Below the pieces are notes generated by a model. The model worked only from the letters and a program-made list of their open reading frames with translations, did no database searches and was not told where the DNA came from. Below are positions 5,926 through 9,320 of a stretch of DNA of 42,407 nucleotides, piece after piece; position 1 is the stretch's first letter; every line of letters starts with the position of its first letter. The stretch is from the NCBI RefSeq assembly GCF_001044255.1, contig NZ_JYNX01000054.1:52590-94996 (forward strand), in the 5' to 3' direction. The DNA comes from Mycolicibacterium chubuense. GTDB lineage: Bacteria > Actinomycetota > Actinomycetes > Mycobacteriales > Mycobacteriaceae. The translations under genes were made by a program, and so were the position numbers.

Positions 5926-6993
5926 TCACGACTCCTTCGCCAGTTCGGCGGTCAACTGGTCGCGTTGGCGCGCCAGGTCCGGGGTGATGCGGTGGTAGAC
6001 GGTGTCGAACACCTCGGTGACGTCGACGTCGGCCTCGGTCAGCACGGCGTCGCGCAGCTCGCTGCGCAGCCGCTGGGCGCGGTGCGCGACGCGGTCCTCC
6101 AACCGCTGCGTCCACACCCCCTCCTGCTCGAGATACGTCCGGTACCGCGCCAGCGGATCGCGGGACTGCCAGAGGTCGACCTCGTCCGCGCTGCGGTAGC
6201 GGGTGGGGTCGTCGGACGTGGTGTGCGGCCCCATCCGGTAGGTGACCGCCTCGATCAGGGTCGGCCCCTCGCCGGCACGGGCGCGGGCGGCCGCCTCGGC
6301 CATCACCGCGAAGCACGCGAGCACGTCGTTGCCGTCGACGCGAATGCCGGGCATGCCGTAGCCGTCGGCGCGCTGGGCGATCGAGGGCGCCGCCATCTGG
6401 CGATGCACCGGCACCGAGATCGCCCACTGGTTGTTCTGCACGAAGAACACGCACGGCGCCCGGTACACCGACGCCAGGTTGAGCGCCTCGTGCACGTCGC
6501 CCTCGCTGGTGGCGCCGTCGCCGAGGAACGCGACGGTCACGCTGTCCTCGCCGAGGCGCTGGGCCGCCATCGCCGCGCCGACGGCGTGCAGGCCCTGCGT
6601 GCCGATCGGGATGGAGATCGGCGCGCAGCACTTGTCGGTGAAGCCGAGGCCGCCGTGCCATGTCCCCCGCCACAACGCCCCGACCTGCGGCGGGGAGATG
6701 CCGCGCACCAGGAACGCGCCGAGTTCGCGGTACTGCGGGAACAGCCAGTCGGTCTTGCGCAGGCACGCCGTCGCACCGACCTGGGCGGCCTCCTGCCCTC
6801 GGCACGAGGCGTAAAGGGCCAGCTCGCCCTGGCGCTGGAGGTTGACGAACTCGGTGTCGAGCTCGCGGGTGACGGCCATCGACTCGTAGAGCCAGGCCAG
6901 GGTCTCCGGGGGCAGATGTCTTCGGTATCGGGTTTCCGCCGTCGGCGCGCCGTCGGGCGCGACGAGCGCAATGGGCTCACGAACACCGGCCAT
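5926..6993 (-). CDS. bkdA: Branched-chain 2-oxoacid dehydrogenase E1 alpha
   Basis: About 355 residues from the ATG at 6993, chosen over a GTG at 7011 because AGGAGG lies at ideal spacing before it. The ThDP/Mg motif starts with GDGATSEGDVHEALNLA (G158-D159-G160) and ends at N187-N188. Other E1-alpha landmarks are LYASCRGQEAAQVG and the TYRMGPHTTSDDP phosphorylation-loop region. First gene of bkdABC. In M. tuberculosis citE lies directly upstream on the same strand. Here a gene on the other strand and a decayed citE fragment intervene, so bkdABC needs a promoter between 6994 and about 7090. None was identified with confidence. Confidence 0.92.
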   Translation of the reverse strand: MAGVREPIALVAPDGAPTAETRYRRHLPPETLAWLYESMAVTRELDTEFVNLQRQGELALYASCRGQEAAQVGATACLRKTDWLFPQYRELGAFLVRGISPPQVGALWRGTWHGGLGFTDKCCAPISIPIGTQGLHAVGAAMAAQRLGEDSVTVAFLGDGATSEGDVHEALNLASVYRAPCVFFVQNNQWAISVPVHRQMAAPSIAQRADGYGMPGIRVDGNDVLACFAVMAEAAARARAGEGPTLIEAVTYRMGPHTTSDDPTRYRSADEVDLWQSRDPLARYRTYLEQEGVWTQRLEDRVAHRAQRLRSELRDAVLTEADVDVTEVFDTVYHRITPDLARQRDQLTAELAKES

Positions 6994-7093
6994 ACCGCCT
7001 CCTAGGGTCACTGGCGGCGGATCGCGCCGTCAGTCGACTGAGGTGCTCAGCACGGAGGTGGTCGGTGCTGACCTCTGGTGGGAGGTCTGTCCG

Positions 7094-7245
7094 TCAGCTG
7101 CCGGGGTGTGGCGCCAACGCGACGATGTGCTCCGCCGCCGTAGTGCTGGGGCATCCACCATTATGCCGCCGAAGCCGAGACCGCCCCTGCTGCGTGCGCG
7201 CCGTGTCGAGGGCGAGGCGCGCCGAATCGCGTAGTCGACTACTCA
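7094..7245 (-). pseudogene. Decayed duplicate of the citE 3' end
   Basis: About 140 bases match the 3' end of the intact citE (8023 onward) in the same orientation. Seventeen bases are identical (7111-7127 versus 8034-8050), followed by strong similarity with two single-base indels. Read on the minus strand the fragment still spells LDTARTQQG and, after the indels, AEHIVALAP, against LDTARTQRG and AERIVALAP in CitE, and a stop codon sits at the matching place (7094-7096). It has no start and the middle is frame-shifted, so it is not expected to make protein. It lies between bkdA and the exported-protein gene at 7320 and marks how that gene arrived. Confidence 0.88.
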
Positions 7246-7319
7246 TGCCCCCGCCGCCGTGGCGCCCCGTCAGAGTGGCGATTGCTCCGGTCCACCCACT
7301 TCTTGGAAAGCGAATCCCG

Positions 7320-8003
7320 ATGACCATCACCTCGATCGAGATCAGACGAGCAGCGTCGTTGTTCCTGCCGGTGTCGGGGGTGCTCGCCCTGGCCGTCTCG
7401 GCCGTGCCGGCGCCCGCCGCCGCAGAACCGCTGCCGTACGGGCCGGACACCTGCATCCAGGGCTACGTCTGGCGCGAGGCGCGCCCTGGCGACACCGTCT
7501 GCGTGCTCCCCGCAGTCCGCGACCGCACCGCCACCGAGAACGCCCATCCGGCGTCCAACAAGGACCCACTCGCCGGCTCCGGACCGGAGTCCTGCTCCCA
7601 GGGCTACGTCTGGCGCGAGGCCTTCGACGGCGACACGATCTGCGTGACGCCGGCGGAACGGACCGACACCTTGGCCGACAACGCCGCGGCGCAGTCCCGC
7701 AGACAGGCCGACCAGCCCGGACAGCAGGCACCCGCCAACGGTTCGCACCGGGTGGTCTTCAACGTCACCGGCTCCGGGGAGGTGTTCAACATCGTGACCG
7801 ATCCGGCCGGCCCCTTCGTGCCGGATCACACGCCGTTGCCGTTCGCGCGGACCTTGGACATCGGACCTGACGTCAGCATGCTCCAGGTGGTCGCCACCGG
7901 GCGGGACGCCCCGGGCCCGGGATGCTCGATCTCGATCGACGGCACGGTCGTGGCGTCACAGACGATCGGCGGCAGCGGGCACTGCATCTACGTCTTTCCG
8001 TGA
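7320..8003 (+). CDS. Exported protein with two QGYVWREA repeats and an MmpS-like C-terminal domain
   Basis: A 227-residue product with a signal peptide (hydrophobic LFLPVSGVLALAVSAVPAPA, cleavage likely near AAAEP). Two tandem repeats of about 55 residues follow, each with a C-x-QGYVWREA-x2-GD-x-(V/I)CV-x-P core (CIQGYVWREARPGDTVCVLP; CSQGYVWREAFDGDTICVTP). The C-terminal 85 residues (VVFNVTGSGEVFNIV to the terminal HCIYVFP) resemble the extracytoplasmic beta domain of MmpS-like proteins and that of the gene at 17213. The ATG has a GGAAAG site about nine bases upstream. It is convergent with citE (19 bases between stops) and divergent from bkdA, alone on its strand in an otherwise minus-strand cluster, flanked by citE 3' sequence on both sides. 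Function unknown. Confidence 0.82.
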   Translation: MTITSIEIRRAASLFLPVSGVLALAVSAVPAPAAAEPLPYGPDTCIQGYVWREARPGDTVCVLPAVRDRTATENAHPASNKDPLAGSGPESCSQGYVWREAFDGDTICVTPAERTDTLADNAAAQSRRQADQPGQQAPANGSHRVVFNVTGSGEVFNIVTDPAGPFVPDHTPLPFARTLDIGPDVSMLQVVATGRDAPGPGCSISIDGTVVASQTIGGSGHCIYVFP

Positions 8004-8022
8004 GCTGCGGCAGCCCTGACGG

Positions 8023-8832
8023 TCAGCCGCGCGGCGCCAACGCGACGATGCGCTCCGCCCGCCGCAGGACGGGGGCGTCCACCATGATGCCGCCGAACTG
8101 GAAGACGCCCCGTTGCGTGCGTGCCGTGTCGAGGACGCGGCGCGCCCAGTCGACCTGCTCGTCGGTCGGCGCGTAGGCCGCGCGGATCACCGCCACCTGC
8201 GTCGGGTGGATGGCGACCTTGGCGTCGAAGCCGACCGCGACCGCGTCGTCGCTCTCGGCGCGCAGCCCGTCGAGGTCCCTGATGTCGAGGTACACCGAGT
8301 CCAACGCCAACCGCCCGTAGGCCTTGGCGGCGAGCAGACTCTGCGAACGGACGTGCTGCGCGACGTCACGGTAGCTGCCGTCCGGCCACCGGTTGGCCGT
8401 CCCGCCGGTCACGGCGAAGAGGTCTTCGGCGCCCCACATGACGGCGCAGGCGTTGTCGACGCGGGCAGTCTCGGTGACGGCCAGCGCACCCAGCGGGGTT
8501 TCGACGAGCACGACGATGTCGCGGGGCGCCAGCGAGGCGACCTGCTCGGCGGTCTCGGTCTTGGCCAGCATGACGGTGGTGTAGCCGGTCGACGCGAGCG
8601 CCTCGAGATCTCTTGCGTGGTCCGGTGTGCCGACCGGGTTGACCCGTACGACGGTGCGTGCCGGGTCCAGCGGGGTGTCGATCAGGGCCTGCCGGGCGAC
8701 CGCGCGATCCTTCGCGGCCACGCCGTCCTCGAGATCCAGGATCACGACATCGGCTGCGGCCGCCGCTTTTTCGAAGCGCTCGGGTCGGTCCGCCGGGCAG
8801 AACAGCCACCCGGGACCGTTGGCCCCCCGCAT
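8023..8832 (-). CDS. citE: CitE-type beta-hydroxyacyl-CoA lyase (HMG-CoA/citramalyl-CoA lyase type)
   Basis: A 269-residue TIM-barrel lyase of the HpcH/HpaI-CitE family. Landmarks are GWLFCPADRPERF, DVVILDLEDGVAAKDR (metal/CoA site), VVRVNPVGTPD, VLVETPLGAL with the metal-binding glutamate, MWGAEDLFAVTGG and IHPTQVAVIRAAY. The M. tuberculosis homologue Rv2498c has been reported as a bifunctional lyase serving leucine catabolism ((R)-HMG-CoA) and itaconate breakdown ((S)-citramalyl-CoA). A true citrate lyase is unlikely because no CitD or CitF is present. The ATG at 8832 and a GTG at 8835 both overlap the stop of the MaoC gene (GTGATG), so coupling holds either way. Its 3' end is duplicated downstream at 7094. 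Confidence 0.88.
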   Translation of the reverse strand: MRGANGPGWLFCPADRPERFEKAAAAADVVILDLEDGVAAKDRAVARQALIDTPLDPARTVVRVNPVGTPDHARDLEALASTGYTTVMLAKTETAEQVASLAPRDIVVLVETPLGALAVTETARVDNACAVMWGAEDLFAVTGGTANRWPDGSYRDVAQHVRSQSLLAAKAYGRLALDSVYLDIRDLDGLRAESDDAVAVGFDAKVAIHPTQVAVIRAAYAPTDEQVDWARRVLDTARTQRGVFQFGGIMVDAPVLRRAERIVALAPRG

Positions 8833-9320
8833 CACGACTCTCCGCCGGGATGCTTGCGCACCATGGTCTTTCGCGATGCCGTCGCGACGATGTCGCCGTG
8901 CTGGTTGCGGCCGACGTGGCTGAAGGTCACGATGCCCTCACCCGGGCGGCTCTTGGACTCCCGCTTGTCGGTGACCTCGGTCTCGGCGTACAGCGTGTCC
9001 CCATGGAAGAGCGGTTTGGGGAAGCCGACCTCGCCGAAACCCAGGTTGCCGACGATCGTGCCCTGCGTCAGTTGCGCCACCGACAGGCCCACCAGCGTCG
9101 ACAGCGTGAACATCGAGTTCACCAGCCGCTGATGGAACGGCGGCAGCGCATCGGAGAACGCGGCGTCGAGGTGCAGCGCCTGGGTGTTCATCGTCAGGGT
9201 CGTGAACAGCACGTTGTCGGCCTCGGTGATCGTCCGGCCCGGCCGGTGCTGGTAGAGGACCCCGGTGTCGAACTCCTCGAACCACAGGCCGCGCTGCACC
9301 ACGACCTTCCGGTCGGTCAC
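8832..9320 (-). CDS. MaoC-like (R)-enoyl-CoA hydratase
   Basis: A 162-residue single-hotdog MaoC dehydratase. The hydratase-2 segment is RTITEADNVLFTTLTMNTQALHLDAAF, with the Asp that normally pairs with His in the family. Further motifs are the GTIVGNLGFGEV strand and FPKPLFHGDTLYAETEV. It corresponds by position to Rv2499c, assigned in the itaconate/leucine pathway as a hydratase acting before the CitE lyase. Start and stop overlap fadE19 and citE by four and one to four bases, so the three are translated together. Mesaconyl-, itaconyl- or methylglutaconyl-CoA are candidate substrates; the sequence alone does not choose. Confidence 0.85.
   Translation of the reverse strand: MTDRKVVVQRGLWFEEFDTGVLYQHRPGRTITEADNVLFTTLTMNTQALHLDAAFSDALPPFHQRLVNSMFTLSTLVGLSVAQLTQGTIVGNLGFGEVGFPKPLFHGDTLYAETEVTDKRESKSRPGEGIVTFSHVGRNQHGDIVATASRKTMVRKHPGGES

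Follow-up and report, generated by a model that had tools for sequence, protein, structure and literature searches.

The stretch of Mycolicibacterium chubuense DNA considered here (the window, 42,407 nucleotides) carries the 3' end of citE twice, and the question raised by this locus is what the second copy, lying beside bkdA, represents. The two tails (7110-7229 and 8033-8152) were found in the same orientation and were 83 % identical in a local alignment, with a score of 137 vs at most 38 in 1000 Markov-shuffled pairs; an independent repeat search recovered the same two blocks. The duplication reported by the first-pass annotation was thus real, as was its exact match (the longest run being 18 bases), but the copies differed by more small indels than the two single-base ones it had counted. 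It had also correctly placed a plus-strand gene (7320-8003), probably encoding an exported protein as judged by eye from its signal-like N-terminus, between both copies, and an open reading frame in the intact citE (8023-8835, minus strand). The second copy (7094-7229, minus strand), hereafter the relic, was out of frame when read in the citE frame. On one side it is followed by a segment (7230-7319) that comprises the junction with the inserted gene and the DNA upstream of that gene; on the other it runs unbroken into the region upstream of bkdA (5926-6993, minus strand), which encodes the E1 component of branched-chain keto-acid dehydrogenase and whose ATG, at 6993, is preceded by a ribosome-binding site. 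The same continuity was displayed by the nearest single-tail relative (G054), where citE lies 82 bp from bkdA, as had been predicted for genomes without the gene. Over 7094-7229 the relic was 88 % identical to this single tail, so that it retains the old citE stop and the sequence past it, and it was closer to this tail than to the window's own intact citE.

The window belongs to the Mycobacterium-Mycolicibacterium group, in which citE was detected in 230 out of 248 genus genomes (E<=1e-60) and bkdA in 168 (E<=1e-100). Altogether 249 loci were analysed (L032-L161, the 80 named loci L162-L241, and L276-L314); several genomes appear under two locus numbers, which is why counts are given on distinct sequences. 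After removal of 58 duplicates, 187 distinct citE tails remained, of which 74 were coupled to bkdA, 68 were decoupled from it and 45 had no bkdA in the locus, a class that includes three tails with less than 1 kb of downstream sequence as well as G066, G206 and G223, in which bkdA lies 4.4-6.5 kb away (the codon counts given below being unaffected). In the coupled state, the citE stop was located 48-116 bp 5' of the bkdA start codon (72 distinct leaders). In decoupled loci, a citE tail severed from any citE body adjoins bkdA, usually out of frame, and the distance from citE to the bkdA start was 212-6508 bp in rapid growers (52 of the 53 being measurable) and 194-265 bp in slow growers (15), some gap figures being extrapolated from the bkdA alignment with an error of up to tens of bases. 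The 68 decoupled loci comprised 53 distinct leaders of 172-180 nt and 15 shorter ones from slow growers. When a strict pattern was applied, the citE frame stayed open as far as the old stop in 12 of the 53 relics and not in the other 41, although at least two of the latter also reached that stop, with changed residues, under a looser reading; none of the 15 slow-grower relics passed the strict pattern. As 12 relics were still in frame, part of the conservation may reflect youth. The search for stops overran an earlier citE stop in L070 and L180, where an in-frame stop soon after an R-R-A-E motif ends citE early and the citE end is unlike that of other species. Three loci (L291, L292 and L295) displayed bkdA without citE, with CATAAT ~30 nt before the start codon and the long leader lost.

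Besides the 5' part of the predicted bkdA leader, the relic contains the hexamer CATAAT (7160-7165, minus strand), a candidate -10 box of bkdABC, which is CATCAT in the intact citE. Coupled citE genes write this box as ...GGC-ATA-ATG-GTG-GAT..., within a G-x-M-V-D motif whose x codon was ATA in 72 of the 74 coupled tails and ATC in the other two. ATA was found in none of the 68 decoupled tails, which encoded Leu (31), Gln (28), Val (6) or Ile (3, as ATC), and in none of the 44 scorable tails without bkdA, where Ile did not occur at all (one more tail was unscorable). The resulting contrast, 72/2 vs 0/112, corresponds to a Fisher p of 5e-50, uncorrected for kinship. Since the coupled class had been defined using the motif, the test was repeated by gap length alone, and ATA was then displayed by 72 out of 75 vs 0 out of 67. 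The nearby Asp was written GAT in 74/74 coupled vs 12/68 decoupled tails. Other Ile codons within the last 100 codons were mostly ATC, ATA accounting for 11 out of 325 in coupled tails, and the x position was occupied by Arg or Lys in three CitE relatives belonging to two further genera of the family. In the window, the intact citE kept the Ile as ATC, with GAC (for GAT), CCC and GTC alongside, so that its 3' end lacks the box that the relic keeps; this looks like an early stage of citE drift away from the promoter sequence. CATCAT was encountered in two coupled genomes and in the relic of M. kyogaense, and CATACT in three relics.

As suggested by this codon pattern, the promoter seems to dictate a residue of CitE until duplication lets the copies specialise: CATAAT would be the -10 box of bkdA and would fix the residue for as long as coding and promoter sequences overlap. 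Promoters of downstream genes located in the coding end of an upstream gene are known from bacterial operons as intragenic promoters, and a -10-like element conserved beyond coding need was found here in the coding end of citE. The bkdA promoter candidate resembles them in this location and differs from them in being tied to a rare Ile codon, and even to an amino acid, and in having been split off repeatedly by tail duplication. Neither a -35 element at 16-18 nt from the candidate -10 box nor any sigma-70 promoter with a -35 element was found in the window between 6950 and 8100, and intrinsic terminators were likewise absent from this region; many mycobacterial promoters are devoid of a -35 element. 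Overall, the overlap of coding and promoter sequence and the retention of the relic are well supported.

Most probably, then, the relic represents a conserved 5' control region of the bkdABC operon that doubles as the end of citE until a tail duplication separates the two jobs. In coupled genomes, the last ~25 codons of citE would encode CitE and at the same time hold the -10 box and the first part of a folded leader RNA of ~165 nt ending at the bkdA start codon. Wherever DNA comes between citE and bkdA, both jobs would be kept only if the tail is duplicated; the outer copy would then complete citE and drift off the promoter sequence, while the inner copy, remaining by bkdA, would keep the -10 box and the RNA fold and lose the citE reading frame in time. 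The duplication, the retention of the relic, the near-constant leader length of rapid growers, the codon pattern, the covariation and the recurrence are observations; we infer the use of CATAAT as a -10 box, the transcription of the leader and its part in the regulation of bkdABC, and the origin of each duplication. The division between copies is directly visible in the window: a covariance model of the leader, R1 (of which the window is one of the building rows), matched the stretch that runs from the -10 box up to and including the bkdA start codon (6991-7166, minus strand; contig positions 59580-59755) with 176.8 bits (E 2.1e-36) vs 38 bits for the intact citE tail. Each copy has thus kept one function and lost the other, the intact tail with its open frame and the relic with CATAAT and the high R1 score, although frame loss across the genus was incomplete, as indicated by the 12 relics mentioned above. 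In duplication-degeneration-complementation (subfunctionalisation), a sequence with two functions is duplicated and each copy gives up one of them. The present case differs from that of whole genes in that only ~130 bp are concerned and that one of the two jobs is coding and the other regulatory.

How the second tail arose is a separate matter. Homologous replacement, in which a donor citE end recombined within citE, brought passengers along and left the old tail behind to be retained by selection, concerns origin only and is compatible with the control-region explanation; it is a possibility worth keeping, though we judge it somewhat less than even. It would account for the intact CitE of decoupled loci being of a Gln/Leu type that is prevalent also where no bkdA is in the locus, for the several base changes required to reach Gln or Leu from ATA, and for unrelated passengers at one spot. 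It sits less well with the window, where the end of the intact citE closely resembles its counterpart in G054, and with the trees. The changes needed between the coupled and decoupled states numbered 10 on the tree of fadE19 and the Rv2499c homologue, 13 on that of the citE body and 13 on that of bkdA (quick trees of 60-62 labelled rows). The citE-body tree thus required no fewer changes than the upstream genes, which argues against decoupled citE being one transferred type, and a single gene-transfer type of citE common to all decoupled genomes was therefore unsupported. The concatenate (60 rows) gave 12 changes, 11 of them forced by starred (well-supported) branches; for fadE19 together with the Rv2499c homologue, a tree of 82 rows gave 11 changes between states, with starred branches forcing only 4 per group. 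These trees do not distinguish gain from loss.

Counted from CATAAT as far as the bkdA start codon, the leader measured 172-180 nt in the 53 distinct decoupled rapid growers and 170-183 nt in coupled genomes, which also included a shorter group of 125-143 nt. Eight coupled loci (L103, L109, L117, L119, L124, L127, L129 and L134) had a leader of 136-139 nt devoid of part of the 3' region. In the 15 slow growers, leaders were 129-152 nt long; the -10 box and the relic persist there, while the fold was unsupported by covariation, with two compensatory pairs only and no helix masking the ribosome-binding site. Leaders were collected with the pattern CAT[ACG][AC]TGG, and seven bkdA loci failed either this pattern or the length limits. 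In the decoupled set (44 rows), GCATAATGG was conserved at 1.79 bits per base vs 0.90 for the preceding 10 bases and 0.12-0.55 for positions -11 to -80, the invariance of the -10 box being partly built in by the search pattern. The aligned leader reached a mean of 1.45 bits among 20 more diverse rows obtained by stricter thinning; an ungapped profile of the 44 rows gave only 0.46-0.99 bits 3' of the -10 box because of small indels.

An RNAalifold consensus of 52 leaders (alignment A1) comprised 38 pairs, of which 12 were changed on both sides, vs 7.6 in shuffled alignments (reached by 2 out of 500) and 3-8 in slid controls. The predicted transcription start (7152-7155, minus strand), ~6-8 nt past the -10 box, falls on the first paired bases of this consensus. 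In alignment A2, which is the decoupled set, the tails belong to no citE gene, and its structure was predicted from A2 itself: 14 of 48 pairs were changed on both sides vs 10.5 in shuffles (SD 1.2; 2 out of 500 reaching this figure) and 5-9 in slid controls. Two-sided cells numbered 98 vs 45.7 (none of 500 shuffles; slid controls 11-21), and further pair types gave a weaker signal, reached by 25 out of 500 shuffles. Mean folding z-scores were -3.3 for 16 decoupled and -2.4 for 16 coupled leaders. Rapid growers thus display a conserved fold with compensatory changes beyond those of shuffles and slid controls. Whether this fold acts as RNA bears on a second alternative, in which control is exerted at the DNA level only, through the promoter and sites for DNA-binding proteins, the fold being incidental. 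The -10 box is indeed the best-conserved part, slow growers retain it and not the full fold, the ribosome-binding site is not unusually masked, and helices 3 and 6 form inverted repeats, a possible target of a dimeric protein, and such repeats would covary as DNA sites too. Nevertheless, helix 2 joins bases some 60-100 nt apart and has six pairs changed on both sides, folding was more stable than in shuffles, and the leader length was near-constant, so that control by DNA alone appears unlikely.

If the leader does regulate bkdABC as part of the control region proposed here, the route is only suggested by the model of its fold. In the outermost helix of A1, the predicted 5' end pairs with the ribosome-binding site and the start codon, which would permit regulation through a masked ribosome-binding site. 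Base-pair probabilities gave a masking of 0.20 vs 0.23 and of 0.23 vs 0.23 in shuffled sequences, and as this helix hardly varies, covariation gives no support for masking. A conserved upstream peptide was rejected, the peptides varying in both length and sequence. The would-be start was NTG in 49 of the 53 decoupled leaders (36 ATG, 9 TTG, 4 GTG; otherwise 3 AAG and 1 CAG), and its U may be needed for pairing instead. Many rapid growers displayed a mid-leader stem with a GGGG side and then TTTT after helix 4, resembling a weak attenuator, which was not found in the window.

R1 matched 136 out of 248 genus genomes (E<=0.001), and 100 genomes had a match at E<=1e-14, one such match each. A second, weak match (E>=4e-7) occurred in seven genomes, that of the window being the 38-bit intact citE tail; many weak single matches corresponded to citE tails without nearby bkdA or lay 5' of bkdA in slow growers. 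Outside the genus, no match was encountered in samples of the order (298 genomes, one of 76 genera matched) and of the class (197 genomes, one of 90 genera matched), under filters that lose weak matches. None of the 4227 Rfam covariance models matched the window between 6800 and 8400 (E<=1) or the loci of six relatives (E<=0.5). The leader resembles the cis-regulatory leaders and riboswitch candidates of Rfam in being conserved, folded and placed immediately 5' of the opening gene of a catabolic operon; it differs from them in that the listed matches comprised a single strong copy per genome, in that the samples yielded it in one genus and in that its 5' half is coding in many species. A riboswitch with multiple targets is less likely on account of this single copy and single genus. 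That the leader represents an RNA of a new class, sensing a metabolite or bound by a protein, for the breakdown of branched-chain keto acids in mycobacteria, with a 5' half derived from the coding end of citE, is a speculative proposal to which we give little credence; if true, one stretch of DNA would be protein code, promoter and RNA sensor until duplication separates them.

The gene between the two tails suggests a further explanation, namely that insertion of an exported-protein gene left a neutral, functionless duplicate of the citE end. Its product carries two C-x-Q-GYVWRE repeats and a C-terminal part found alone in other proteins of the genus, and it had no Pfam match above cut-off, no NCBIfam match and no PDB match. 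The repeats (window 7439-7685) are tandem, 141 bp apart and 72 % identical as DNA. Relatives of the protein (any match) were found in 71 out of 248 genus genomes, with several per genome in some; they were near full-length or restricted to the repeat half or the C-terminal half. Among the 249 loci, the gene lies between citE and bkdA in three genomes only: the window (L032), Mycolicibacterium chlorophenolicum DSM 43826 (L162), to which the window is 94.6 % identical over 4.6 kb and whose full-length insert (87 %) makes for a gap of about 995, and M. kyogaense (L038 = L165; gap about 665), whose insert has its middle deleted. The repeat region of the latter protein, residues 45-141, is missing in frame and the C-terminal part is retained. 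A perfect 12-bp palindrome, GTAGTCGACTAC, lies at the junction of relic and insert (7231-7242) and is nearly kept in M. kyogaense; it may be an operator of the inserted gene.

In favor of an insertion scar, the gene does separate the copies in these genomes (window, L162 and L165), the insert/relic junction is identical in kind in the window and M. kyogaense, and the near relatives L033, L164 and L197 have a single tail and no gene, a state that deletion between direct repeats could also restore. The single tail expected where the gene is absent was thus encountered in G054, L033, L164 and L197, but not throughout: among the 30 nearest citE loci, a set that includes the window's, 10 had a short second tail beside bkdA and no such gene, the very observation that the first-pass annotation had named as refuting its proposal. 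Second tails without the gene were common, which largely refutes this reading, and relics were conserved genus-wide at a near-constant distance from bkdA, with compensatory changes and unconserved upstream bases. A mere scar is therefore very improbable, and the relic is best read as a conserved control region. In keeping with this, the same spot was occupied elsewhere by unrelated genes (inserts listed for 14 loci). Ten insert proteins from 8 of these loci, run on Pfam, included a histidine-kinase-type ATPase domain, an MFS transporter, a P450, a TetR regulator, a DyP-type peroxidase domain, a histidine phosphatase, a mannitol dehydrogenase, a MarR regulator and DUF1214, one protein being without a match; at many other loci the intervening DNA amounted to just some 100-300 bp. 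A large, related-looking gene (~750 aa) lies on the opposite strand between citE and bkdA in L082, L190, L208 and L297; that of L082, the one run on Pfam, is the carrier of the histidine-kinase-type ATPase domain. The exported-protein gene of the window would thus be one among several unrelated passengers. A mobile element that inserts site-specifically at the citE 3' end and, in the manner of integrative elements, brings a replacement tail would fit the architecture (intact gene, insert, displaced 3' fragment, one spot reused) but is scarcely credible, since no integrase was matched in the window insert or the 10 insert proteins from 8 loci (Pfam), the inserts are unrelated, and the retained repeat resembles a promoter and leader, not a crossover site.

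According to the portions of the M. smegmatis report drawn on here, the TetR repressor BkaR controls accD1-citE, and RT-PCR detected cotranscription of bkdABC with citE over an intervening 211 bp "with no associated regulatory motif" (PMC3920632). An own promoter of bkdABC is thus not strictly required in that species, whose gap, by the published figure, lies at the edge of the decoupled range found here. Derepression was 16.5-fold for citE, 8.4 for bkdA, 3.3 for bkdB and 1.8 (not significant) for bkdC (PMC3920632); these falling values are compatible with an additional promoter and no proof of it. The BkaR regulon concerns the same gene cluster, and its paper, in the same portions, explains bkdABC by cotranscription with the citE operon and does not describe a promoter, leader or citE relic (PMC3920632). 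In M. tuberculosis, the transcript of Rv2497c was unchanged when both citE genes were deleted, as stated in the part of the report cited here (PMC6232273), which fits with a bkdA that is not solely dependent on citE. No description of a bkdA start site, leader or riboswitch was found in the main text of the open-access papers searched.

The control-region reading offers an explanation of the gap before bkdA in M. smegmatis, left unexplained in those portions of its report (PMC3920632), and it points to a non-Rfam leader RNA on an operon for branched-chain amino-acid breakdown. Across the genus, these loci amount to an experiment that nature has repeated many times, the division of a sequence with a double role between two copies, so that what the overlap costs is visible in one codon. 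They also give a warning: what looks like gene debris beside an intact gene may be a control region at work.
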